Part shown: one piece after another, positions 2,759 to 17,738 of the stretch
How positions within the stretch are numbered: the first letter of the stretch is position 1
How the letters are laid out: every line of letters starts with the position of its first letter
Source: a virus
Direction: 5' to 3' (one strand)
DNA length: 52,412 bases
IMG/VR virus record: IMGVR_UViG_3300027743_000033
Span: 1-52,412 of that record
Translations under genes and position numbers: made by a program
The notes under the pieces: model-generated
Seen by the model: only the letters and a program-made list of their open reading frames with translations
What the model was told of the DNA's origin: nothing
Database searches by the model: none

Positions 2759-3497
2759 TCCCGCTCAGCCGTAGAGCTTCCTTCGCAGAAATATCCGGGT
2801 CGCCACGAGTAGCGGACACGACGTATTCGCGGGGATCGAATTTGGTCGAAGCGGTTTCGAGAGCGGCCCTTGCGAGGGCTACATTTCCGCCTTTCGCCTT
2901 GAGAAGATTGCGAATTAAGCCGCCGGAGGTTTTCCCAAGAACGGCTTTCCCGCGCTTGAAAAGCTCGGCTTCCGGCGTTGGTGGGTCGTGTCCGTTTTCA
3001 AAATTCGGTGCCGCGTCAGCGGCCGCGGAAGCGGCATCTTGTTTTCTAGATTCTTTCTGGATTCTAGCTTCTAGCATATGGGCTTTATCGGGGGGGATAA
3101 CCCCCCCGTTGGCCTCTTGGTTAACCAACCCGTTTTCCGGTGGCTTTAGCTTAGGATTACCTCCCCCTTTTCCATTCTTGCGGTCTGTTGCTTCCTTGGC
3201 CTTATCCCTGACCATGCGACGGGAGTATATCGTACCCGCCTCCGACGTACTGAAAACGCCACGTCCTCGGAGTTCGTCGAGCGCCTTAGTTACCTCCTTT
3301 ATGGGGCGACCCACGAGCGCCGATATTTCCGATACGTCCGGCGGCTTGCCATCGATCAGCAAATGGCCGTAGGGCTCACCCTCGTGCATATAGGACATCA
3401 TCTCAATCCAAAGCCCCCGAGCCGAGAGCGAGCACATCCGCAAGCGCGGCTCGCTGCGCCAATCCGCCGGATAGAATTTCATCCATGGGCGGTTCAT
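2748..3497 (-). CDS. phage replication protein (DUF1376/replisome-organiser-like)
   Basis: Using the ATG at 3497 gives 249 residues beginning 'MNRPWMKFYPADW'. This start matches phage replication proteins in which an N-terminal winged helix ('LRMCSLSARGLWIEMMSYMHE...', 'EISALVGRPIKEVTKALDELRGRGVFS') precedes a low-complexity linker and a C-terminal helical part. It lies immediately upstream of the primase genes, so it probably loads or organises the helicase (inference). The 63 extra upstream codons in this frame are an antisense-like arginine-rich reading and were dropped. Confidence 0.7.
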   Translation of the reverse strand: MNRPWMKFYPADWRSEPRLRMCSLSARGLWIEMMSYMHEGEPYGHLLIDGKPPDVSEISALVGRPIKEVTKALDELRGRGVFSTSEAGTIYSRRMVRDKAKEATDRKNGKGGGNPKLKPPENGLVNQEANGGVIPPDKAHMLEARIQKESRKQDAASAAADAAPNFENGHDPPTPEAELFKRGKAVLGKTSGGLIRNLLKAKGGNVALARAALETASTKFDPREYVVSATRGDPDISAKEALRLSGNAW

Positions 3498-4003
3498 TGA
3501 TCGTGGTCGTCCTTTAGCTTCTGATACAGTTTGCAAATCTGAACGACACACTCGAATGGGTCCCGGAATATCTCCGAGCCGGTGAACCTCAAAAGCGGAA
3601 CGCCGGCGATCTGAATATCCCGATCCTTCTTGCGATCGCGCGCCGCCTGATCCTTGGTTCGCTCGTGGAAGTCGTGCCCATCGCATTCGATGAACATCAT
3701 CTTCCGAAAATTGTCGTTCGGTCGGTTGCCGATGAGCGCGAAGTCAATTCTGTAATTTTCAAACAGGTATTGTGGCACAATCATCATGCAGCGCTTATCC
3801 TGCCACTTCCCAATATCCCCAAACGGGCACAGAACAGATACGTCTGGAAAATTGAATCTGAGCGACGCCGTGACGGCAGCACCAAGTAGGATTTCGATCT
3901 CGCTCCCACACATCGGAGTCAGCGTATCGATGATGCCCCGGTAGCAGAGCGAGACACTCGGCACCATGCTTGTCAAAAGCCTATGCTCAAAGTCCGGGTT
4001 CAC
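3494..4003 (-). CDS. DUF559/Vsr-like PD-(D/E)xK nuclease
   Basis: A 169-residue protein starting at GTG 4003, behind a clear GGAGG seven bases upstream. The core reads 'YRIDFAL' (D87), 'FIECDGHDFHERTKDQAARDRKKD' (E106, D108) and 'GVPLLRFTGSEI'. This is the PD-(D/E)xK arrangement of DUF559 and very-short-patch-repair-like endonucleases. It overlaps the next gene's start by four bases. Known relatives nick or cleave DNA; here it could act on host DNA or in recombination. The target is unknown. Confidence 0.75.
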   Translation of the reverse strand: MNPDFEHRLLTSMVPSVSLCYRGIIDTLTPMCGSEIEILLGAAVTASLRFNFPDVSVLCPFGDIGKWQDKRCMMIVPQYLFENYRIDFALIGNRPNDNFRKMMFIECDGHDFHERTKDQAARDRKKDRDIQIAGVPLLRFTGSEIFRDPFECVVQICKLYQKLKDDHDQ

Positions 4004-4049
4004 GTCGTCGCCTCCATAATCACCATGGCGCTCGGTCGTGGTGCGATTG

Positions 4050-4241
4050 TCATAGCAGCCGCTCCCCCTTTGCCGCCGCAACGTAGTCCTGCACGATTGC
4101 CGCCATGCATGCGATCTCATGGGCGGCCTTGCCGGCGGACATTTTGCCTTCCGTGACCCACCGCTCATAAACGCGCGTTCGCATTTTCAATTCGCGTTCA
4201 GCGCAGGCAAGTTTGTCGGCCGCGGTGATGGTATCGGTCAT
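4050..4241 (-). CDS. small phage protein of unknown function
   Basis: A 63-residue, mostly helical protein 'MTDTITAADKLACAERELKMR...' starting at 4241 behind an AGGGGGG ribosome site. It overlaps the end of rusA by four bases, so it is translationally coupled. The middle 'ERWVTEGKMSAGKAAHEIACMAAIVQDY' is a pattern I have seen in small alphaproteobacterial phage proteins. I cannot assign a function. Confidence 0.6.
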   Translation of the reverse strand: MTDTITAADKLACAERELKMRTRVYERWVTEGKMSAGKAAHEIACMAAIVQDYVAAAKGERLL

Positions 4242-4735
4242 GCGGCCCCCCTCGCCTGCTCGCCCCACAGGAGCGGCTCGGTCGTTGGCGCTATGTCAGC
4301 AATGCTGATGGCCCCCTGCACCTCGATCAGCAGGCCGGGCTTGTCGGCGTAGGACTTTGACACGAAGCCCTGCACGATCTGGCTGTCATCGCGCCACACA
4401 ATGCCGTTGAGCGCATCAAGCATCTTGACGAGGTTGTCCCAATCGGGACGCCCAGTGGGGCGCAGGATGCCGCGCAGGGCCTGCTCACGCTTCTTTCGGC
4501 TCCAGCTCTGCGGGACCGAAAAGAACGCAGCGACTTTCACCTTCAGCGGGCCATCGCATAGGGGCTTATCACCCATAGCCTGTTGCGCGGCATCGCGGAG
4601 GAGCGACTCGTAGGAGCGGGTGTTCGTCGGTGTGTACGCGCTCACGAACGACGCACCTGCTTTCGTCGTGATCTGACGGAACCGCGGGCGACCCTTACCT
4701 TGCGGTTGTCCTGGCAAGAGGATGGTAATTCTCAA
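4238..4735 (-). CDS. rusA: RusA-family Holliday junction resolvase
   Basis: RusA cuts four-way DNA junctions during phage recombination and replication. Starting at TTG 4735 gives 165 residues. This start is set by AGGAGG five bases upstream and a four-base overlap with the preceding gene's stop. The protein shows 'GKGRPR' (residues 13-18) and the acidic set 'PDWDNLVKMLDALNG...WRDDSQI', with D98, D100, D107 and D116/D117 matching the metal-binding aspartates of RusA. A second, broken rusA N-terminus lies upstream at 5427-5519. Confidence 0.88.
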   Translation of the reverse strand: MRITILLPGQPQGKGRPRFRQITTKAGASFVSAYTPTNTRSYESLLRDAAQQAMGDKPLCDGPLKVKVAAFFSVPQSWSRKKREQALRGILRPTGRPDWDNLVKMLDALNGIVWRDDSQIVQGFVSKSYADKPGLLIEVQGAISIADIAPTTEPLLWGEQARGAA

Positions 4736-5430
4736 GCCACCCTCCTGCGTCTCGTATTGCGGGCTTGTTCTGATCGCGTCGCCCATCGACAATTGCCCGG
4801 CTCATAGTTGCCGTCGTTGTTTTCGCGCTCGATCGAATGGTTATGAGATGGGCGTGCGCCCATGTCGGCAATAAAATTCTCGAATGAATTATTCCATCGC
4901 TCGCAGACTTTGATGCCCCTGCCCCCATAGTCTTGAAAGCGGACAACGGCGGGGTTCTGACACCGCTGCTTCATTGAATTCCAGATACCGTACTCTGGCG
5001 TTTTGCGCTTCCCATGAGTGGCGTTAAGGCGTCCCGTAGTTGCAGACACCTCCTTGGCGAGGCACCCGCAAGATTTGGTGCCGCCATTCCGGAGCAGACC
5101 AGTCCTCACCTCATTTTGAAGTCCGCAGTCACAACTGCACAGCCAGTGTGTCGTCGGCCGTTTTTCACTACGCTCAATTACGACAAGCTTTCCAAACCTC
5201 CGGCCCCTTAGATCAAGCAGACGCTTTGCGATCGTTTCCCGCCGCTGACAGCCGCATGAACTAGAAAGACCGCGCCGAAGATTGGTCGCATACACGACAA
5301 CATCGGCGCCACAATCACAAAGACAGTGCCACAGCGCGTGGCCCCTTGGGCTTGACCCAGCATGCTTTCCGGCAATCAATTTGCCGAAACGCTGCCCCGC
5401 AACGATATTGGTTTTGGTTATCATGGTCAC
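4732..5430 (-). CDS. zinc-repeat HNH/AP2-like homing endonuclease
   Basis: A 232-residue protein with two zinc-binding modules, each 'W.C.CDCG...SCGC' (about residues 34-56 and 96-122), then an HNH-like C-terminal part ('GIWNSMKQRCQNP...YGGRGIKVCERW', 'HSIERENNDGNYEPGNCRWAT'). Many phage homing endonucleases share this architecture. It starts with GTG 5430 overlapping the stop of a truncated rusA start, and its own stop overlaps the TTG of intact rusA. Its placement exactly between two rusA starts points to insertion by homing. Confidence 0.8.
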   Translation of the reverse strand: MTMITKTNIVAGQRFGKLIAGKHAGSSPRGHALWHCLCDCGADVVVYATNLRRGLSSSCGCQRRETIAKRLLDLRGRRFGKLVVIERSEKRPTTHWLCSCDCGLQNEVRTGLLRNGGTKSCGCLAKEVSATTGRLNATHGKRKTPEYGIWNSMKQRCQNPAVVRFQDYGGRGIKVCERWNNSFENFIADMGARPSHNHSIERENNDGNYEPGNCRWATRSEQARNTRRRRVA

Positions 5431-6738: not shown

Positions 6739-6758
6739 CTCACGCTGCGCGATTGGAT
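6739..6758. repeat. 20-bp direct repeat, copy 2 (end of gcrA)
   Basis: Second copy of the repeat at 6135-6154. It covers the gcrA stop codon and the leader of the gene at 6168-6731. Confidence 0.85.
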
Positions 6759-7243
6759 CTGGCGGCGATGCCTGGGCAGCACAGGGCAAAATGTTCACTG
6801 CAGTAAGAGCGGTTGGGCAGCGTCTCGGCGGCGCAAAAGAAGAAGCTCCCCGAACCAGGCTCGCCAAACGGGAACCGGCAATCGCTCTCTTTGAGCTCGA
6901 AGAACTGCTTGCGCCGTCGTCGGGGCCTGCGCGGGACCGCCTCGGCCGGAAGTGCTGGCGCCGGCGGCCTCATCGGCTCTTGCTTCAGTTTCCTGTTGAT
7001 GCGGCCAGCGATGGTGTAATCGCCGCCGGCCTGGCGGGGCTGCGGCCGCAGCTTCGGCGGTTTCGGCGGTTTCGGCCGCGACAGACCAAGACGGTGTATT
7101 CGCCCGATCACGGCGTTGCGGGTCAGCCCGCAGTCGAGCTCGATGGCGATCCGGCCCGCAGACAAGCCCTCGGCGTGCAGACGCCTCAGGGCCTCGTCCC
7201 GCTCCGCGTGCCAAACAGTGACCTGTGCCATGCCGTCCCCCAT
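6740..7243 (-). CDS. gcrA: GcrA-like transcription regulator
   Basis: GcrA is the alphaproteobacterial cell-cycle activator that works with sigma70 at promoters methylated by CcrM (established). This 167-residue protein has the diagnostic N-terminus: 'VTVWHAERDEALRRLHAEGLSAGRIAIEL...TRNAVIGRIHRLGL', a basic proline-rich linker, then a C-terminal block 'CRFPFGEPGS..FFFCA...PNRSYCSEHFALCC' typical of the family end. A phage copy may redirect host cell-cycle transcription or act on phage promoters (inference). ATG 7243 has GAGAGG seven bases upstream; ATG 7231 is possible. Confidence 0.85.
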   Translation of the reverse strand: MGDGMAQVTVWHAERDEALRRLHAEGLSAGRIAIELDCGLTRNAVIGRIHRLGLSRPKPPKPPKLRPQPRQAGGDYTIAGRINRKLKQEPMRPPAPALPAEAVPRRPRRRRKQFFELKESDCRFPFGEPGSGSFFFCAAETLPNRSYCSEHFALCCPGIAARSNRAA

Positions 7244-7286: not shown

Positions 7287-7955
7287 TCATTCTGCCGCCT
7301 CGGCCTTGGTTTGTAGACGACGCGCATCCTCTTCCCGTTTGAGCGTTTGCCATTCGATGTCGGACAGCTTTGCTGCTTGTTTGGCAGCTCGGTCGAAAGC
7401 AGACACCTTTTTGCGGACGGGTTTTTTGCGGAAACCAGCCTCGATCATGCCGGCGTGCGGCGACAGCTCGCCGGCCAGCACGCGGGCGTGGATCTCGGGA
7501 CGGTCCTTGCGGAGACGGCGGAGCGCAGCAGCGGCGGAGGTGCCGGTGGGCCTCTCCACTTCGTTGATAACGGCGATCTTGTTATCAACAAGGTCGGTGC
7601 GCTTCCCCTGTTGGCTCTCATTAGCCCGATCCTTTTCCTCGATCTCGTTTGCCACCTTGGCTCGAATAGCTTTCTGCCATAGCTTCAGGGCTTCGGTGTC
7701 TTCGGCTTTAAGCAACAGCGTGGTGACAATCTCCGGGTCCCAGCCACAGCCCGCCGGCTTTTTGCCGGTGACGAATTCGGTGAAATCATCGAAGCGGATG
7801 ATCTTGCCCAGCTCATAGCGCTCGCGCCATGCGCCAGTTTCCAAGATTTCCCTTATCATTTGCGGAACATGAGGCAGCGTGCAGTCCTCTACTGCGCGCT
7901 TGAATCTCTGCACCACAGTAGTGTTGTCGCTGAGAAGGACCTTTTTAGGCGACAT
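7287..7955 (-). CDS. conserved phage/plasmid protein with KDRPE..GELSPHAGM motif
   Basis: A 222-residue protein from ATG 7955, which has AGGAG five bases upstream. The C-terminal half 'RPTGTSAAAALRRLRKDRPEIHARVLAGELSPHAGMIEAGFRKK' matches a widespread uncharacterised family found on phages and plasmids, sometimes near ParB-like genes. The N-terminal half ('IIRFDDFTEFVTGKKPAGCGWD...') is typical of the same family. It overlaps the end of the HNH-helicase gene by 11 bases, so the two are co-translated. I infer a DNA-related role. Confidence 0.65.
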   Translation of the reverse strand: MSPKKVLLSDNTTVVQRFKRAVEDCTLPHVPQMIREILETGAWRERYELGKIIRFDDFTEFVTGKKPAGCGWDPEIVTTLLLKAEDTEALKLWQKAIRAKVANEIEEKDRANESQQGKRTDLVDNKIAVINEVERPTGTSAAAALRRLRKDRPEIHARVLAGELSPHAGMIEAGFRKKPVRKKVSAFDRAAKQAAKLSDIEWQTLKREEDARRLQTKAEAAE

Positions 7956-10473
7956 CGGACTCCTCCGAAAGATCGCCATAGAGGTGCTGCGCGGGCCCGA
8001 CCACGCCGCGCATGATGAGATCAGCAAGCGCCAGGGATTTGAGTTTGTTTTTAATGGATGGGATCGAGAACTGGTAATGGAACCAGGGCCGGTCCAGGGG
8101 TCCGTTGTTTTCGGTGGAATGCGAGCCAGTCAGTCCACACATCTTGGCGGCGGCGGTGTACACCGCTTTGCTGGTTGGTCCGATGATAACCCGATAGTCA
8201 AACCCCTGCTTTGTCAGCTCCGCAAGCAGCGCATTGCGGACATTGGTAAGGACTCCGGGTTTCCCGTCGGCCGCGATCAGTTGCCGTATCTTGGTCACCG
8301 CCCTGAAATGCTGCTGGTCGTATTTTCGTTTCTGTTGTGCAACGAGCTTGCGGATGTTCGGGTCGGTACCGATCAACTCAGCGAGAGCCGGATCATTGCT
8401 GCCGTCACGCAAGTACCAGTCGCATAATTCATCAGTCGTGTAATCGGCAATGTCTTTGGGAGCCTCGCTCGATATTGGCCTGAGAATATCGAAACGCGGC
8501 TGCAAGATTGTCTCTCTGTAATCGCGACTGGTAAGCACTTGTCGGATGTGCTCTTCAGCGGATTCAGTCCGGCTTTCCGATTGCGGATCCGGCAGTGAGC
8601 ACACAATCTTACCAACATCCTCCGGCGTTACTTGCTTTCCTTGCTTTATGAGCGAGCCCAACTCGTTGTCGATTTGCAATCGGTCCATGAGAGTGAACGG
8701 TGCGTTCGCGTCCACAGGCCCCTCGATCGGCTCGATCTCCAGGCCCTTCATCAGATCGCTCCACGACAGCAGCCCGGAAGTCTCCAGCCTGGCGTCCATT
8801 TGCAATATGAATTCCCAGGCGTCCGCCGCGGCGCTGGGGCATTTGTCTTCGTTGCCTGGGTGGGGAAAATACCAGCGAGGATGGCAAAACCAATCGAACA
8901 TCTCAGCCTCGCGCATTTCTTTCAAATGTGCGGGCAGGCGTGATGTGCGGCCAATCGTCTGTACTTGTTCGCTCCAAGAGGCGCTCCGCTTTACGTCAAC
9001 GACGTACTTGAGCCCCCAATGGTTGAGTCCACGCACCGCGATGTCGACCACAAATATGATACGCGACGATCCCGGCACGCAGCGCCCGTTGTTGTCGAGC
9101 GCGAGCATGAATGGATGTTTCATGTCGGGATTGTTGTAGAACAGACTCGATTCATTCTTCGGGCGGTTGTGTTCACTCGACTTCTTACCGCCAGTAATTG
9201 ATTTGCTGCTTACCATATAGGTCGGGTACCAACCATCGTTGGGAGATAGCCCCATAAGCGATAGGTCTAACGCCGTCTGCTGGCATAACTCGATTGCTTC
9301 ATCGATTCCGTTGCAGGCAACAAAGATATGCGGCGAGAACCAATGAGACGACCATTTTTGCCGTATCTCTCGCTCATGTTCGATGCAGTCATGGACTGCT
9401 TGACGTATCGCCGACATGGTCCCCGGCAATGAATACTTTTCCCCATGTGCTCCTTTCTCTAGGTGCTCGACGCCCGAAACGTCCCGGCTAAAGCCGTCAT
9501 GCTTCACAGCCTGCACATAGCCGCGATCCAATGCGGACTGCCATGGCAACATTGGTGCCAGACAGCTATCCTCGCGAAAGACCGTCGAATGACTTGCAGT
9601 CGCCGCCAGGACAAAGTTGTTGCGGATGAATTTGCCATCCGCGTCGATCGGCGCGGCGGTCAATCCGAACTTCAGCGCGTGCGGTGACAATCGCACAAGC
9701 CGGTCGATCTGATCGCGGGCAAAATCGCACTCGTCCCAGATGATGACGTCATATTGCGCAAGCAGCGACTCAATCTCAATGTCGGACCGGCGCTGGTTTT
9801 TGCCTCCCCATAAAGCGTGAGGGCAGGAAATCACTATATCGTGGTGACCTGGGCCACGATCCAAATCGCCAGTTTCATCGCAAATTGTTATGCTGGGCAA
9901 TGTGGCTACCAAACGATGGTTACCGATATCGGCTTTTAGGTCGGACATAAGCTGCCGGCCGATCTGAGATTGATGACAGAACCACAACACCTTTGAGGGT
10001 CGCGGCGAGACCTTCTGACGCCTATTCACTTCCTCGCAAATGGCGAATAGAAATGCCAACATCAGAACGGTTTTGCCGGCACCGCAAGTCAGCGCCAGCA
10101 ACGAGACATTGCCGAGTAGTTTGTTGCGCAAATCACCGATAAACAGCTCGCCATTCTCAAACACATTGTCGACATTGAATTGTTGCGTCTGCCGCAGACC
10201 AGCGTACCTGAAAGCGCCATCAAACCAGCTCTGTTTACTCCATTTTGGATCGTAAGTCATTCCTCTCTCCTGGTTTGCTTTTCTACAGATTAATCGGCAG
10301 TTTGCTAAACTGGTTTCTCCTCCCAACCCGCGTGAATTGACGTGGTCAACTTCAAGGCGGCTGTCGCACTGAGTTGCGCAGCAAATCTCACACTGCCCTT
10401 TGGACCGCGCCAATAATGCGGCCCAGGTCGTGAGGTTCATGTCATTTGGTTTGTGGGGTAGTATCCATTTCAT
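7945..10473 (-). CDS. HNH nuclease-SF2 helicase fusion
   Basis: An 842-residue protein. Residues 25-72 form an HNH nuclease (C28, C31, 'LEVDHVNSRGLGG', then 'NCRLICRKANQERG'). A complete SF2 helicase/translocase follows: Walker A CGAGKT (130-135), DECD box (247-250), motif III 'LTAAP' (271-275), motif V 'VVDIAVRGLNH' (about 475-485) and motif VI 'QTIGRTSR' (505-512). About 330 further C-terminal residues match no domain I know. It heads the leftward early operon after the HTH genes. The domain order resembles restriction or exclusion enzymes more than replicative helicases. Start 10473 has AAGG upstream; ATG 10440 is possible. Confidence 0.82.
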   Translation of the reverse strand: MKWILPHKPNDMNLTTWAALLARSKGQCEICCATQCDSRLEVDHVNSRGLGGETSLANCRLICRKANQERGMTYDPKWSKQSWFDGAFRYAGLRQTQQFNVDNVFENGELFIGDLRNKLLGNVSLLALTCGAGKTVLMLAFLFAICEEVNRRQKVSPRPSKVLWFCHQSQIGRQLMSDLKADIGNHRLVATLPSITICDETGDLDRGPGHHDIVISCPHALWGGKNQRRSDIEIESLLAQYDVIIWDECDFARDQIDRLVRLSPHALKFGLTAAPIDADGKFIRNNFVLAATASHSTVFREDSCLAPMLPWQSALDRGYVQAVKHDGFSRDVSGVEHLEKGAHGEKYSLPGTMSAIRQAVHDCIEHEREIRQKWSSHWFSPHIFVACNGIDEAIELCQQTALDLSLMGLSPNDGWYPTYMVSSKSITGGKKSSEHNRPKNESSLFYNNPDMKHPFMLALDNNGRCVPGSSRIIFVVDIAVRGLNHWGLKYVVDVKRSASWSEQVQTIGRTSRLPAHLKEMREAEMFDWFCHPRWYFPHPGNEDKCPSAAADAWEFILQMDARLETSGLLSWSDLMKGLEIEPIEGPVDANAPFTLMDRLQIDNELGSLIKQGKQVTPEDVGKIVCSLPDPQSESRTESAEEHIRQVLTSRDYRETILQPRFDILRPISSEAPKDIADYTTDELCDWYLRDGSNDPALAELIGTDPNIRKLVAQQKRKYDQQHFRAVTKIRQLIAADGKPGVLTNVRNALLAELTKQGFDYRVIIGPTSKAVYTAAAKMCGLTGSHSTENNGPLDRPWFHYQFSIPSIKNKLKSLALADLIMRGVVGPAQHLYGDLSEESDVA

Positions 10474-10487
10474 TGAGCACCTTCGCC

Positions 10488-11009
10488 CTATCGTTTGCGA
10501 GCCAAGGTGCGATGAGGACCGCGAGCCACCGCGCGAAGCGCATCACCTTGCTCGCGATAAAATTCCTCGTCCTGAACAAGAAGGGCATCCGCACGGCCGA
10601 TGGCGGCGGAGAGCGCGGTGTCAGCATCGATCGCCTCCCTGAGCCTGCGGCGCGCCGCGCGTTGCAGCCGCTGCGCATCGATCGCGGCGAAATAAGCCTT
10701 GACCCGCCGCCACCAGACAGGCTCGGCGTCAGCCATCAGTGCGACCAGGAAATCGAGCCCGCGTTCGGAGCGGATCAGTGCCGCCAGCGCGTCCGTCGAT
10801 AGCGTGCGCTCGCCTGCAAGCCATCGTTCGGCGGTGCGGAGCGAAGCACCTGTAAGCTCTGCTAATTCGGCCGCCGTCTTGCGCGGCCACAAGCTGCGCG
10901 CTGCGAGCATGACGGGCGAAATCGACCGGCGCTTTGGTCGGTCATTACCGACCAGTTGGCCGGTGACGGAATTTGCGTTCCGGCGCCCGCCGATGCTGAT
11001 GGCGCTCAT
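10488..11009 (-). CDS. HTH regulator with C-terminal basic region
   Basis: A 173-residue protein with a central helix-turn-helix: 'LWPRKTAAELAELTGASLRTAERWLAGERTLSTDALAALIRSERG'. It continues with 'FLVALMADAEPVWWRRVKAYFAAIDAQRLQRAARRRLREAI'. The same arrangement is common in rhizobial phages and plasmids next to immunity genes. Its start overlaps the Cro-like gene's end by four bases, so the two are made together. Likely an early regulator. Confidence 0.7.
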   Translation of the reverse strand: MSAISIGGRRNANSVTGQLVGNDRPKRRSISPVMLAARSLWPRKTAAELAELTGASLRTAERWLAGERTLSTDALAALIRSERGLDFLVALMADAEPVWWRRVKAYFAAIDAQRLQRAARRRLREAIDADTALSAAIGRADALLVQDEEFYREQGDALRAVARGPHRTLARKR

Positions 11010-11279: not shown

Positions 11280-11302
11280 ACATGAATCCTAGTGTGGTAA
11301 GC

Positions 11303-11488
11303 ATGTCCACACGAGGGGAACGACTGCGAGAAGCGCGGATTGCGGCCGGCTATGGATCGGCTAGCGCAGCCGCGACCGCACTGGGCATCTCTCGTTCGAC
11401 TTACAATGCACATGAGCGCGCCGAGGAGCCCGGTGGAAGAGATTATGGCCCAGAGGATGCGGATCGTTATGGACGGAAGTTCAATGTC
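11303..11488 (+). pseudogene. 5' half of the HTH-HicB repressor, cut by IS21 element
   Basis: Sixty-two codons from ATG 11303 give a CI/XRE-type HTH domain ('TRGERLREARIAAGYGSASAAATALGISRSTYNAHERA...EDADRYGRKFNV'). The reading is broken exactly at the left 8-bp target duplication of the insertion element. After removal of the element and one duplication, the frame continues without a stop into 14285-14587 as '...KFNV-SDAYLLTG...', a normal continuation for this repressor type. It was divergently arranged from the Cro-like gene and presumably bound the flanking operators. In the present DNA it reads a few more codons into the element and stops at 11545. ATG 11282 is a possible upstream start. 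Confidence 0.8.
11481..11488. repeat. IS target site duplication, left copy
   Basis: TCAATGTC, repeated at 14277-14284 immediately outside the element's TG...CA ends. The 8-bp length is within the range known for IS21-family insertions. Confidence 0.9.
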
Positions 11489-11495
11489 TGTTGCG

Positions 11496-11549
11496 CGGCG
11501 TGGAAAATTGCCCCCCGTCTGGGGGTGATCGGCGTCGAAAACTGACCCC
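11496..11549. repeat. IS21 left-end repeated sites L1 and L2
   Basis: Two related sites, CGGCGTGGAAAATTGCCCC (from 11496) and CGGCGTCGAAAACTGACCCC (11530-11549). They are inverted relative to two sites at the right end (14226-14269). Such multiple repeats are the transposase binding sites of IS21 elements. Confidence 0.8.
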
Positions 11550-11590: not shown

Positions 11591-13171
11591 ATGAGAGGCG
11601 AGACGAGGATGGTGACGGTGGAGACGATTGGCAAAGTTCGGCGGGCCTACTGGGTTCAGAAGAAGAAGATCAAGGCGATTGCGCGTGAGCTGAAGCTGGC
11701 GCGGAACACCGTGCGGTCGATCGTGCGGAGCGGAGAGACGGCGCCGGTCTACCTACGCAAGGCGCAGCCGCTGCCGAAGCTTGGGCTTTTTGTCGAGCCG
11801 CTCGATAAGTTGCTTGAAGAGAATGCAGGCAAGTCCAAGCGCGAGCGGCTGACGACGAAGAGGGTGTTCGAGAAGCTGCAGCAGGAAGCAGGCTATGCGG
11901 GCGGCTACGACGCAGTTCGCCGGTACGCACAGCGCTGGCGCCAACAGCATGCGGCAGCAACTGCGGCGGCGTTTGTGCCGCTCTCGTTTGCGCCAGGGGA
12001 GGCCTATCAATTCGACTGGAGCCACGAGATCGTGATCCTCGACGGCGTGACGGTCGAGGTGAAGGTGGCGCACATGCGGCTCTGCCACAGCCGGATGCCG
12101 TTCGTGCGGGCCTACCTGCGCGAGGCCCAGGAGATGGTATTCGACGCCCACGACACGGCGTTTGCCTTCTTCAAGGGAGCCTGCCAGCGGGGCATCTACG
12201 ACAACATGAAAACGGCTGTTGACGCGATCTATGTGGGCAAGGATCGAGCGTTCAACAGGCGCTTCCTACAGATGTGCAGCCACTACTTGGTCGAGCCCAC
12301 GGCGTGCACGCCTGGTGCCGCGTGGGAAAAGGGCCAGGTCGAGAAGCAGGTGGATAATCTTCGCACGGCCGTGTTCATGCCCAGGCCGCGGTTCAAGAGC
12401 TTGGAAGACCTCAACGCCTGGCTGCTCGCGGAGTGTATTGCCTGGGCCAGAAAGCAGGCTCACCCGGAGTTCCAAGACCAGACGATCTTCGAGGTGTTCG
12501 AGGCTGAGCGCAAGAATCTGGTCGGCTATCGAGGTCCTTTTGATGCCTACCGCTCGATCTCGGCGTCGGTGTCAAAGACGTGTCTGGTCCGCTTCGACAA
12601 CAACAAATACTCGGTAATGGCCAAGGCCGTCGGCCGTCCGGTCGATATCTACGCCTATGCGGACAGCGTCGTACTCAAGCAGGACGGCGAGGTCGTCGGC
12701 GAGCATCCGCGCTCATTCGCCCGCAACAAGACCCAATACGATCCGTGGCACTACGTGCCGGTGCTGGCGAGGAAGCCCGGGGCCATGAGGAACGGGGCGC
12801 CGTTCAAGGACTGGGAACTGCCCGGCGCGCTCGGCCGGGTGAGAGCCAAGCTCAAGGGCGTAACGGATGGCGATCGCCAGATGGTCGATATCCTCACCAC
12901 GGTGCTCACCGACGGGCTTGCTGCGGTGGAGGCGGCGTGTGCGGAGGCTTTTGCCGGTGGGACGCATAGCGCGGACGTCATCTTGAACATCCTGGCGCGA
13001 CGCAGCGAGCCGACACCATCCCCAGCCGTTGCTACACCGGCGCAACTGCATCTGGCGGTGCCGCCACGGGCTGATTGCGCTCGCTATGATGGCCTACGGC
13101 CGCTGCCGACCCACCCCACCGCTGCGCTTGTCGAAGCCGCCACCGTGGGAGGTACTCATGGAGCGGTCTGA
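11591..13171 (+). CDS. istA: IS21 transposase IstA
   Basis: DDE-type transposase of 526 residues. The N-terminal HTH '[34 protein letters not shown]' binds the ends. The rve-like core has the catalytic residues in 'YQFDWSHE' (D near 142), 'GIYDNMK' (D near 204) and '[11 protein letters not shown]' (E near 246). The C-terminus carries the usual 'NKYSV...VYADSVVL'-type Mu C-terminal barrel. Length is normal for IstA. It overlaps istB by 14 bases. Confidence 0.95.
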
Positions 13172-13886
13172 GATCCTGGAGATGATGGGCCAACTGCAGC
13201 TGTCTGGCATGCGGGGGGCTTACGACGAAATCGTCACAGCGGGCATCAAGCGCAGCCACGGGATCGAGCGCGTCATTGGTGCCTTGCTCAAGGCCGAGAT
13301 CGCGGAGAAGGAGGCGCGCTCGATTCGCTACCAGATGGGGATCGCCAAGCTGCCGCTCGCCAAGGAGCTTGCCGAGTTCACCTTTGCCGGCACGCCGATC
13401 AACGAGCAACTGGTGCGCGACCTGGCGGGCGGCGGCTTCCTTGCTCAGCAGCGCAACGTCGTGGCGATCGGTGGAACTGGCACCGGCAAGACGCATCTTT
13501 CTATCGCCATCGCGAGAAGCTGCATTCGTGCGGGCAAGAAGACGCGCTTCTTCAACGTCATCGATCTCGTCAACAAGCTCGAGGCCGAGGTCAAGCTCGG
13601 TCGGGCCGGCCGCATCGCCGACGGGTTGACACGCGTCGACCTGGTGATCCTCGACGAACTGGGCTATCTGCCATTTGCCCAGAGTGGCGGCCAACTGCTG
13701 TTCCACCTGATCAGCCGCCTCTACGAGCGCACCTCTATCATTGTCACCACAAACCTTGCTTTCGCCGAGTGGCCGACCGTATTCGGCGACGCCAAGATGA
13801 CGACCGCACTGCTCGACCGGCTCACGCACCACTGCGACATCATCGAGACCGGCAACGACAGCTGGCGCTTCAAGAACCGCAATTGA
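13158..13886 (+). CDS. istB: IS21 helper ATPase IstB
   Basis: AAA+ ATPase of 242 residues that assists IstA in target choice. It starts at ATG 13158 with GGAGG five bases upstream, inside the istA end. It shows '[12 protein letters not shown]' at the N-terminus, Walker [10 protein letters not shown], Walker B '[12 protein letters not shown]' and sensor '[18 protein letters not shown]'. It appears full length and intact. Confidence 0.95.
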
Positions 13887-14276
13887 CGCGCTTGCCCGCT
13901 CCGGCCAAGCGCCCACATGATCGCTGCCCGACTTGCACTTAGCCTGCCAGCGTGCTCGCCACCGGCAAGGTGCGGCCTGGCGACGGCGGAGTGTGCCGCA
14001 CGGTTGGAGCGACGGCCGACCTTGACGGCGTCTGCGCGCGCTGGCCGCGCGCGATCGCAAGGTCGGGGCGAAGGAACGCGCCAGATCGAACAAAGGAACT
14101 GCACTGTAGAACGGCGCCAAGTTCTGACCCCTCATCAGCATCAATCCTGACCCAAAAAAACGACCGACACTTGAGGCTGAAGCTGCGCAGCTTCGGGCTC
14201 AAATGGCCGAAAACTCATGCGCAGGAGGGTCAAATTTGCACGCCGATCGGGGGTCAACTTCGGACGCCGATTGACA
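13887..14276. other. non-coding right arm of the IS element
   Basis: About 390 bp after istB without a convincing gene. It is part of the element and includes repeated sites R2 (14226-14245, GGGTCAAATTTGCACGCCG) and R1 (14249-14269, GGGGTCAACTTCGGACGCCG), inverted copies of L2/L1. The open frame through here simply joins the downstream HicB fragment. Confidence 0.7.
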
Positions 14277-14284
14277 TCAATGTC
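14277..14284. repeat. IS target site duplication, right copy
   Basis: TCAATGTC, matching 11481-11488. It directly precedes the resumed repressor reading frame. Confidence 0.9.
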
Positions 14285-14587
14285 TCGGATGCCTATTTGT
14301 TGACCGGAAAAAACTTGGTGCCACCCGATGCCTTCAAGAGATCAAAGCCTGTGCCAATGCTGATCGTCATTAAGGCTGAATTTGATCCCGACTCCGAATC
14401 CTGGTGGGCCACCGCGGATATTGACGATCGCCACGCGTTAGCAACTGGTGCTCCTACATTGAACGAATTGCTGGAACGAATCCCAATTGTGCTGCGAAGT
14501 CTTTTGGCAGAAGCGTACCCGGACACGGAAATTCCGTTCAGCATCGTGGCCCACAAATTCAGCGTCGTGAACACGCGCGTGGCATGA
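14285..14587 (+). pseudogene. 3' half of the HTH-HicB repressor (DUF1902 antitoxin domain)
   Basis: One hundred codons that continue the frame broken at 11488. 'SDAYLLTGKN' completes the HTH repressor. It is followed by a DUF1902/HicB-like antitoxin domain 'MLIVIKAEFDPDSESWWATADIDDRHALATGAPTLNELLERIPIVL...IPFSIVAHK'. The stop overlaps the hicA start (ATGA). Uninterrupted, the protein would be 162 residues: repressor head and HicA-neutralising tail in one chain. An internal ATG at 14357 could still give a lone antitoxin domain, although no ribosome site is visible before it. Confidence 0.8.
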
Positions 14588-14778
14588 ATAATTTTACCCC
14601 GGCGTTAAAAAAACTTCTGCGTGAAGCCGGTTGTTTTGTCGTCAGATCGGGGAAGGGCGACCATGAAATCTGGGAAAGCCCGGTTTCCAACAAGCGCTTC
14701 CCGGTCGACAGCAAGATTGCATCCCGCCACTTGGCGAACGCAGTGCTGAAACAAGCCGGATTAGCCAAACAATTTTGA
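14584..14778 (+). CDS. hicA: HicA-family mRNA-interferase toxin
   Basis: A 64-residue HicA toxin with the double-stranded-RNA-binding-like fold. 'FTPALKKLLREAGCFVVRSGKGDHEIWESP' carries the catalytic histidine (H27), and 'KRFPVDSKIASRHLANAVLKQAGL' is the standard second half. HicA cleaves mRNA and is neutralised by the HicB protein encoded next to it. Here the partner is the C-terminal part of the split HTH-HicB gene, overlapping by four bases. The toxin itself looks intact. Confidence 0.92.
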   Translation: MNNFTPALKKLLREAGCFVVRSGKGDHEIWESPVSNKRFPVDSKIASRHLANAVLKQAGLAKQF

Positions 14779-14780
14779 AT

Positions 14781-14797
14781 TGCTACAAAACGTAGTT
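14781..14797. promoter_or_regulatory. operator OR2 (imperfect)
   Basis: TGCTACAAAACGTAGTT: a perfect left arm, a degenerate right arm keeping GTAG, and a 3-bp spacer. It overlaps the -35 of the rightward promoter by two bases, as OL2 does on the left. Confidence 0.62.
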
Positions 14798-14824
14798 GAC
14801 GGCCTCTGCTACGTAGTGTAGCAC
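14796..14824 (+). promoter_or_regulatory. rightward early promoter
   Basis: TTGACG (14796-14801), 17 bp, TAGCAC (14819-14824). It mirrors the leftward promoter, with one operator over the -10 and another touching the -35. It should drive the recombination/integration operon starting at 14853. Confidence 0.65.
14807..14823. promoter_or_regulatory. operator OR1
   Basis: TGCTACGTAGTGTAGCA: one mismatch from a perfect 7-3-7 palindrome. It covers the spacer end and -10 of the rightward promoter. Its centre is 26 bp from OR2, the same spacing as OL1 to OL2. Confidence 0.72.
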
Positions 14825-15973: not shown

Positions 15974-16890
15974 TCGAACGTCACCCCATGACGGACGGAC
16001 GGGTTCACCCGCTCCGGGCGTTCGCCATCACCGGGTCCGTTGGTGGCGGCCTGCTCGGCGTCCATCCCCACTGGACCCCCTATAGCTTGCACATGGTCAA
16101 GGCCGGATTGGTCGCCGACGACGTCGAAGAGACGGCGCCGATGAAGCGCGGAAGGCTTTTGGAGCCTGTCGCGGTTCAGTTGATCCGAGAAGATTACCCC
16201 GCCATTACGCTAGAAGAATACCCGGTAGGGACGTATTATCTCGATCCTGAGGCGCGCATTGGCGCTACGCCAGACGTGCTGGCGAGGGACGCCAAAGGAC
16301 GGCTCGGCGTAATCCAAATAAAAAATGTCGAGCCCTCAATCTTCCGCCGCGACTGGCGCGGAGAGAACGGCGTCGTCGATCCGCCACTGTGGATCGTGGT
16401 GCAAGCCCTCATCGAGGCGTACCTGACCGGCGCCGAATGGGCGGCCGTCGCGCCGATGCGCGTCAGCTTCGGTGTTGAGATCGAACTCATCCCCATCCCG
16501 CTGCACGAAGGCATCATCGATCGGCTGAAATACGAGGTCGCCGAGTTTTGGCGCCGCATCGAGGCGGGAACGCCGCCCGACCCCGACTATGGGAAGGATG
16601 GCGCGCTGATCGCCAAGCTTTTCCCGAAAGACGACGGCAGCGAAATCGATTTGAGCGCGGACAACATGGCGCCGCAGCTCGTGGCCGACCTCGAGCGCGC
16701 GCGCGCCGACAAGAAGGATGCCGAGACGCGCGAGAAGGTCGCCAAAACCGGCATCAACGAGAAGATGGGCCCTGCCCGCTTCGCGCGCCTCGCCGATGGT
16801 CGGCGCATCTCGAACATCACCGTTAATCGCGCAGAATTTTATGTCAAAGCCACCACTTACCGCGCAATCAAAATTTTGGCAGCAAACTGA
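15970..16890 (+). CDS. YqaJ-family phage exonuclease
   Basis: A 306-residue lambda-exonuclease-like (PD-(D/E)xK) alkaline nuclease that resects double-strand ends for the annealing protein. It shows 'MKRGRLLEPVAVQLIRED' (the GxxLEP-type glutamate), 'IGATPDVLA' (catalytic D), 'LGVIQIKNV' (QIK, standing in for ExK) and 'PPLWIVVQALIEAYLTGAEWAAV' (the YqaJ signature). The start at 15970 is set by an ATGA overlap. RecT lies two genes downstream, giving the expected exonuclease-annealase pair. Confidence 0.85.
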   Translation: MIERHPMTDGRVHPLRAFAITGSVGGGLLGVHPHWTPYSLHMVKAGLVADDVEETAPMKRGRLLEPVAVQLIREDYPAITLEEYPVGTYYLDPEARIGATPDVLARDAKGRLGVIQIKNVEPSIFRRDWRGENGVVDPPLWIVVQALIEAYLTGAEWAAVAPMRVSFGVEIELIPIPLHEGIIDRLKYEVAEFWRRIEAGTPPDPDYGKDGALIAKLFPKDDGSEIDLSADNMAPQLVADLERARADKKDAETREKVAKTGINEKMGPARFARLADGRRISNITVNRAEFYVKATTYRAIKILAAN

Positions 16891-17738
16891 TGACCTTCTA
16901 CACCTACGTGATGCGCGACCCGCGCCCGGGTAAAAACTTGCAGCCGATCTACGTCGGCAAAGGCAAAGGTAGACGAGTACACGTGCATTGGCGCAAAGCC
17001 CTCGACCATAGGAATCCATTGCTCCGTCGCGTCTTTGGCAAACTTCACAAATCTGGCTTGGAACCGCAGATTGAGATCGTCGGCCATTTCGATGTCGAGA
17101 CCGAAGCCTTTCAGCGCGAAATCGAATTGATCGCCCAATATGGACGACGCGATCTTGGCTTGGGCACTCTTTGCAATCTTACTGACGGTGGCGATGGCGC
17201 GTCTGGATGTTTGATTACTGCGACGCGCGTCGAACGCTTTCGAAAACAACTCACCGATCCTGAGTCTGAGTTTTCCAAAGCAAGAGTTGAAGGTTTGCGA
17301 AAGCCGGAGGTTAGGAAGGCCAATTCCGAACGCATGCGAAAGCGCTCTGCCGACCCGGAATTTAGGAAGGCTAATTCCGACCGTACGCGGAAGCAAAATG
17401 CCGATCCGGAATTCATCAAGGCGCGTGCTGAAGCTTTAGTTAAGCTTCACGCTGACCCGGAATTCACCAAAGCGAATACCGAACGCATGCGCAAGCGCAG
17501 CGCCGACCCAGAATTTAAAACTCGCGCGGCCGCTGGTCGTGCGGCTTATCAGGCCAAAGGGCTCTCGTGTGGTGAGGGTAACAGCATGGCAAAATTGAAT
17601 GAAGAAGCGGTTTGCGAAATCAAGAAACGCATTGCAAGCGGAGAAAGGAGTACGCCGATTGGCTGTGACTTTGGTGTTTCCAGGCGAACAATCTCACACA
17701 TCAAGAATGGGACAACCTGGGGGCACGTTAATGTCTGA
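16890..17738 (+). CDS. GIY-YIG homing endonuclease
   Basis: A 282-residue protein. The N-terminal GIY-YIG nuclease domain starts 'FYTYVMRDPRPGKNLQPIYVGKGKGRR' and includes 'FQREIELIAQYGRRDLGLGTLCNLTDGGDG' (catalytic E). Four short NUMOD-like repeats follow, each near 'ADPEF.KANSERMRKR'. A C-terminal HTH 'AKLNEEAVCEIKKRIASGERSTPIGCDFGVSRRTISHIKNGTTW' completes it. This is a classic mobile homing endonuclease. It is wedged between the exonuclease and the coiled-coil gene with one-base and eight-base overlaps. Confidence 0.9.
   Translation: MTFYTYVMRDPRPGKNLQPIYVGKGKGRRVHVHWRKALDHRNPLLRRVFGKLHKSGLEPQIEIVGHFDVETEAFQREIELIAQYGRRDLGLGTLCNLTDGGDGASGCLITATRVERFRKQLTDPESEFSKARVEGLRKPEVRKANSERMRKRSADPEFRKANSDRTRKQNADPEFIKARAEALVKLHADPEFTKANTERMRKRSADPEFKTRAAAGRAAYQAKGLSCGEGNSMAKLNEEAVCEIKKRIASGERSTPIGCDFGVSRRTISHIKNGTTWGHVNV

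Follow-up and report, generated by a model that had tools for sequence, protein, structure and literature searches.

A conserved two-gene phage cassette made of an HNH nuclease-SF2 motor fusion and a downstream partner

The DNA analysed here, which we call the window, is a stretch of 52,412 bases encoding an integrase, a large terminase, a portal, a DnaB-like primase-helicase, a YqaJ/RecE-like exonuclease, a RecT-like annealase and RusA, together with a replisome-organiser-like protein recognised by a weak match. The integrase, terminase, portal and replication and recombination set indicate a temperate tailed phage. A GcrA-like cell-cycle regulator gene (6740-7243, minus strand) lies just after the gene pair described below, with homologues near the pair in two other loci (L001 and L002), and suggests that the host is alphaproteobacterial. 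Further nuclease genes are scattered through the phage: two encode HNH proteins (44-403 and 4732-5430), one is of the REase_MTES_1575 type (3494-4168, minus strand) and one is a weak GIY-YIG match (16890-17738, plus strand).

The gene of interest encodes an HNH domain fused to an SF2 motor and follows a group of HTH regulators, which were confirmed where the first-pass annotation had placed them; the gene may be made early. On the opposite strand, a short HTH repressor-like reading frame of 87 aa (11282-11545, plus strand) seems to continue into an IS21-like element with an istA/istB pair (11591-13886, plus strand). No peptidase-type C-terminal half of a repressor was seen beyond this element, which may have broken the repressor-like gene. 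Frames resembling HicB and HicA were noted by eye after the element (about 14150-14800, plus strand), and are possibly a toxin-antitoxin pair.

Table 1. Features of the HNH-SF2 gene and its partner in the window.
Feature	Position	Strand	Basis
HNH-SF2 fusion gene, 842 aa	7945..10473	-	ORF read, ATG start, Pfam, homologue alignment
HNH nuclease domain, residues 28-69	10267..10392	-	Pfam PF01844 and alignments
SF2 motor, residues 94-514	8932..10194	-	Motifs, Pfam, alignments, profile comparison
C-terminal 282 residues of the 842-aa protein	7948..8793	-	Model and alignment columns
Partner gene, 222 aa	7287..7955	-	ORF read, alignments, AlphaFold model
GGAGGA ribosome-binding site of the partner, within the helicase frame	7961..7966	-	Sequence read

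The layout that had been read from the letters, an N-terminal HNH followed by a full SF2 motor, was borne out by Pfam, in which both HNH (PF01844, E 4e-5) and ResIII (PF04851, residues 94-276, E 7e-9) pass the cut-off and Helicase_C is a weak match at 468-512. The motor motifs are found as CGAGKT at 130-135 (Walker A), DECD at 247-250, LTAAP at 271-275 and QTIGRTSR at 505-512 (motif VI), and the sequence GAAGG sits 7 nt 5' of the start codon. The roughly 280 residues C-terminal of the motor have no Pfam match. An AlphaFold prediction on the 842-aa protein with four homologues (pLDDT 45) makes this third all-helical at low confidence, and it is also the least conserved part of the protein, with 11% invariant columns in the four-sequence close group, where the HNH has 28% and the motor 26%. 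HNH is the only nuclease domain that Pfam finds on the chain, a search that a diverged PD-(D/E)XK domain in the C-terminal third could escape.

The partner frame begins with an ATG at 7955, so that it overlaps the HNH-SF2 stop by 11 nt. In its AlphaFold model, built with 39 sequences (pLDDT 87), residues 8-116 form an N-terminal domain and residues 140-221 a helical C-terminal one containing a three-helix HTH-like unit, with a disordered linker (120-136) between them; the relative placement of the domains is not fixed (pTM 0.49). The strongest conservation in the alignments is a stretch within this C-terminal domain. Comparison with the PDB gave no credible match by fold (Foldseek best E 1.6; VIA-align best Z 4.7) or by sequence, a weak list which is no proof of a new fold. 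In a viral structure library a single protein, unnamed and from Caudovirales, matches the partner strongly (E 5e-7); similarity to a short ParB-like segment (E 5.6, 38 columns) is a hint only. The model suggests that the partner may bind DNA or load the HNH-SF2 protein.

Full-length homologues of the window HNH-SF2 protein were found in three other distinct viral contigs, at 48%, 43% and 33% identity and with the architecture unchanged (L003 and L004 bear an identical match), and a partner homologue follows the gene in 3/3 of them. With the window partner alone as query, partner homologues were also recovered behind two diverged SF2 genes; in one of these loci (L012) a gene lying upstream, judged by eye, is closely akin to the window regulator at 10488-11009. 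Profile scans identified the wider HNH-SF2 family on 17 contigs, always with a partner downstream. As the first profile scan was built on HNH and motor patterns, only the scan made with the partner profile is unbiased as to the HNH. This partner scan of viral contigs yielded 34 contigs, all 34 with a family SF2 gene directly upstream, and a hand count found the HNH fused to the motor in 30, present as a short adjacent ORF in two (L065, L066) and lost at the contig end in two (L039, L069). The two frames overlap mostly by 4 to about 100 nt. The window group joins the wider family by profile over residues 17-515, that is HNH and motor, with an hhalign probability of 97.6% (E 4e-12). The pairing pointed out in the first-pass annotation is thus conserved across viral contigs, and the window itself has all the defining features: an N-terminal HNH fusion, a partner directly downstream and retained HNH catalytic residues. 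We conclude that the HNH-SF2 gene and its partner are a conserved two-gene cassette and not a one-off.

Some members are irregular. The motor frame of L044 is broken, the partner of L051 runs past the contig edge and L068 is strongly diverged. HNH and motor occupy separate overlapping frames at L012:2782-3006 and 2948-4657, L065:3019-3336 and 3254-4984, and L030:731-937 and 811-2829, which may be split genes, frameshifting or assembly errors. On a Streptomyces canus plasmid (L077:4986-8360) the HNH-SF2 gene is followed by a 443-aa protein that is only partly partner-like, a diverged variant, and at L026:2096-5746 a 1,216-residue ORF has the HNH-SF2 unit as its C-terminal half.

Outside these contigs, the sole cassette among 50,697 phage records is PIS_093/PIS_094 of Saccharomonospora phage PIS 136, annotated in its record as a DEAD-like helicase and a hypothetical protein. 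It has the same order as the window pair, an HNH-SF2 gene and then the partner, but belongs to the larger subgroup. The cassette is also carried by two Streptomyces plasmids. The window HNH-SF2 protein itself has no match in the 50,697 phage records or in 72,556 plasmids, and two pattern scans of bacterial genome contigs gave no confirmed relatives of the window subgroup. The pair spans actinobacteriophages to alphaproteobacterial phages, and where we saw annotation it was merely 'DEAD/DEAH helicase' and 'hypothetical protein'. HNH-SF2 fusions as such are an already known kind; the papers and family libraries searched, with most of the subscription literature outside their scope, gave no account of the fixed partner, of an N-terminal HNH on an XPB/RadD-like motor or of the breadth among phages.

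Across 31 aligned fusions, 17 columns are invariant (M1, H44, G52, N58, N67, R94, G133, K134, D247, E248, A393, V476, G482, Q505, G508, R509 and R512), so that the HNH triad H44, N58 and N67 varies no more than the residues of Walker A, Walker B and motif VI. The alignment thus does not show the inactive HNH on an ordinary helicase that the first-pass annotation had named as fatal to its view. The four closest homologues all keep C28, C32, C36, H44, N58, C63 and N67 together with the motifs of the motor. In the window group the first zinc ligands follow a C-x3-C-x3-C spacing, as against C-x2-C in the wider family, and in L062, L063 and L071 the zinc cysteines are gone and the H-N-N pattern is retained. 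The HNH matches endonuclease VII families. Because the triad is invariant alongside the motor residues, the domain looks functional, and the alignments are strong indirect evidence that its nuclease activity is under selection.

Compared with solved motors, the family profile has XPBII (E 2e-23) and RadD (3e-23) tied at the top as the nearest, the Type I R subunit close to them (4e-21), then Rad25 (1e-19) and, lower, UvsW (2e-10). By its profile the motor is assigned to the group that remodels or translocates on duplex DNA, which also takes in restriction motors. RadD is reported to speed up RecA strand exchange (PMC8887467), and T5 D10, with XPB and UvsW as its nearest kin, is described as carrying out DNA branch migration (PMC5180179). 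A replicative helicase of the DnaB type was considered and rejected, since the SF2 motor has no DnaB domain and a DnaB-like primase-helicase is encoded by a separate gene of the phage (1090-2598).

Of 39 non-redundant loci, at least 10 (the window, L001, L002, L003, L012, L013, L014, L052, L064 and L065) have recombination or primosome genes in the fetched flanks, identified by profile, by record annotation or through homology with proteins that had a profile match; replication or recombination neighbours rise to about 19/39 when assignments made by eye are added. Other copies, mostly Streptomyces-like, are beside lysis genes (L017, L025, L056), on plasmids or elsewhere, some of them away from replication genes. 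Early phage genes commonly sit near replication genes and the count was made without a control gene set, so the neighbourhood is weak evidence.

Against the PADLOC defence models the window HNH-SF2 protein has no match below E 0.01, the weak match to Type II REase standing at 0.021. In the wider family, 27 of 31 members have a PbeA match (best E 1.5e-28) and 21 of the 31 a Type I REase match. PbeA is described as joining an HKD nuclease to an SF2 helicase and is one of the four-gene PbeABCD set (PMC10853773). No CxC-ABC ATPase/DndE set was found among the neighbouring genes scanned, and among window ORFs of at least 60 aa none shows a credible methyltransferase motif. A Type I/III restriction system, which calls for a methyltransferase and a specificity partner at the locus, is not supported by the latter result.

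The reading that we favour, and hold to be slightly better than an even call, is that the HNH-SF2 protein is an ATP-dependent, ZRANB3-like nickase of forks and junctions, working with a DNA-binding loader partner in phage recombination and fork repair. The HTH-like C-terminal domain of the partner would bind DNA or a phage replication protein and recruit the HNH-SF2 protein, whose XPB/RadD-like motor would use ATP to translocate on or remodel branched duplex DNA such as forks, D-loops or Holliday-type junctions. The HNH might then nick one strand where the motor makes a structure or halts, and the nicked product could enter the recombination pathway of the phage (YqaJ/RecE-like exonuclease, RecT-like annealase, RusA resolvase) for fork restart or the resolution of joint molecules. 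We favour this role because the motor is XPB/RadD-like, the pair is often found in recombination or primosome modules, no methyltransferase was seen in the window and no defence model matches below E 0.01. The invariant HNH triad and SF2 residues, the H-N-N pattern of the cysteine-less members and the endonuclease VII matches count for it too, as do the phage's own exonuclease, RecT and RusA; its DnaB-like primase-helicase speaks against the protein being the replicative helicase. Against it, likeness to XPB and RadD is common to restriction motors, as the E value of the Type I R subunit shows, some Streptomyces-type copies are by lysis genes or on plasmids, and the putative DNA binding of the partner comes from a model that matches no solved structure. 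Both fork processing and the degradation of host or competitor DNA had been put forward in the first-pass annotation; the motor and the recombination and primosome neighbours speak for the former, and the latter fits less well, with no methyltransferase seen in the window and no defence match under the 0.01 threshold.

The main rival reading is a prophage exclusion or restriction-like system, in which the partner would recognise incoming DNA, the motor translocate and the HNH cut, so that the lysogen is protected or host DNA is removed. A nuclease with an SF2 motor is a frequent arrangement in defence, and the PADLOC matches of the wider family and the copies that adjoin lysis genes or ride on plasmids agree with it; we nevertheless regard it as the less likely, given the window protein's lack of a PADLOC match at E 0.01, the lack of CxC-ABC ATPase/DndE in the scanned genes, the want of any credible methyltransferase motif among the window ORFs, and the frequent position of the pair inside replication and recombination modules. 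If it were true, the system would be one that the defence library used here does not list by name. It is very improbable that the cassette serves origin recognition and initiation, with the partner binding the origin, the HNH nicking it and the motor opening it: an HTH-like partner and frequent primosomal neighbours are what one would expect of such a device, but the phage has its own primase-helicase and replisome-organiser-like protein (the weak match above), and a nicking initiator leaves the copies adjacent to lysis genes unexplained.

Two other explanations concern the HNH itself. The protein could be a remodelling helicase whose HNH is only a structure-binding zinc domain and not a nuclease, to which the odd spacing of the first ligands in the window group lends something; the invariance of the triad in the 31 fusions and the H-N-N pattern kept by the three cysteine-less members make this quite improbable. 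A mobile homing-type nuclease inserted by chance beside a helicase gene would suit the free-standing HNH genes of the phage and the three loci in which the HNH is a separate ORF, and yet it is scarcely to be credited when the HNH is N-terminal in about 30 of the contigs selected by the partner, keeps its collinearity with the motor even in distant groups and is still adjacent when split off.

The fork and junction nickase can be put in a broader and more doubtful form, which we offer as a possibility. The cassette may be an undescribed and widespread machine of phages: the partner, its fold unmatched, would load the XPB/RadD-type motor with its HNH nickase on branched DNA, and phages would in this way cut and remodel forks or joint molecules of their own for recombination-dependent replication; it would then be a prokaryotic counterpart of ZRANB3 made from different parts. 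As a conserved unit the cassette points to a defined step, open to experiment, in the DNA metabolism of phages or in conflict.

Among known systems, PbeA and the Type I/III restriction motors resemble the cassette protein in joining an SF2 motor to a nuclease, and share the PADLOC similarity seen in the wider family, but the nuclease of PbeA is HKD within a four-gene set whereas that of the window is HNH. T4 UvsW, T5 D10 and XPB belong to the same broad SF2 group as the cassette motor, and UvsW and D10 are phage recombination helicases; unlike the cassette protein, neither is described with a nuclease fusion in the text consulted. The partner family has no match to UvsW.1. E. coli RadD aligns with the motor end to end by profile, but is a cellular enzyme with no HNH in the aligned part, the match being confined to the motor.

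ZRANB3 and the bacterial ZRANB3-like proteins are like the cassette protein in having an SF2-type motor and a zinc-containing HNH on one chain. The ZRANB3 motor is SNF2-type and its HNH is C-terminal, whereas the cassette has an N-terminal HNH, an XPB/RadD-like motor and a fixed downstream partner; by motor type and domain order, the HNH-SF2 protein is not classed as a member of ZRANB3. ZRANB3 is nevertheless our favoured working analogue for the mechanism. In this SF2-HNH protein, structure-specific cleavage by the HNH requires ATP hydrolysis, and T4 endonuclease VII is among the closest structural relatives of its HNH (PMC5481773). If ATP-dependent fork nicking proves true, the cassette would be a compact microbial model for enzymes of the ZRANB3 type.
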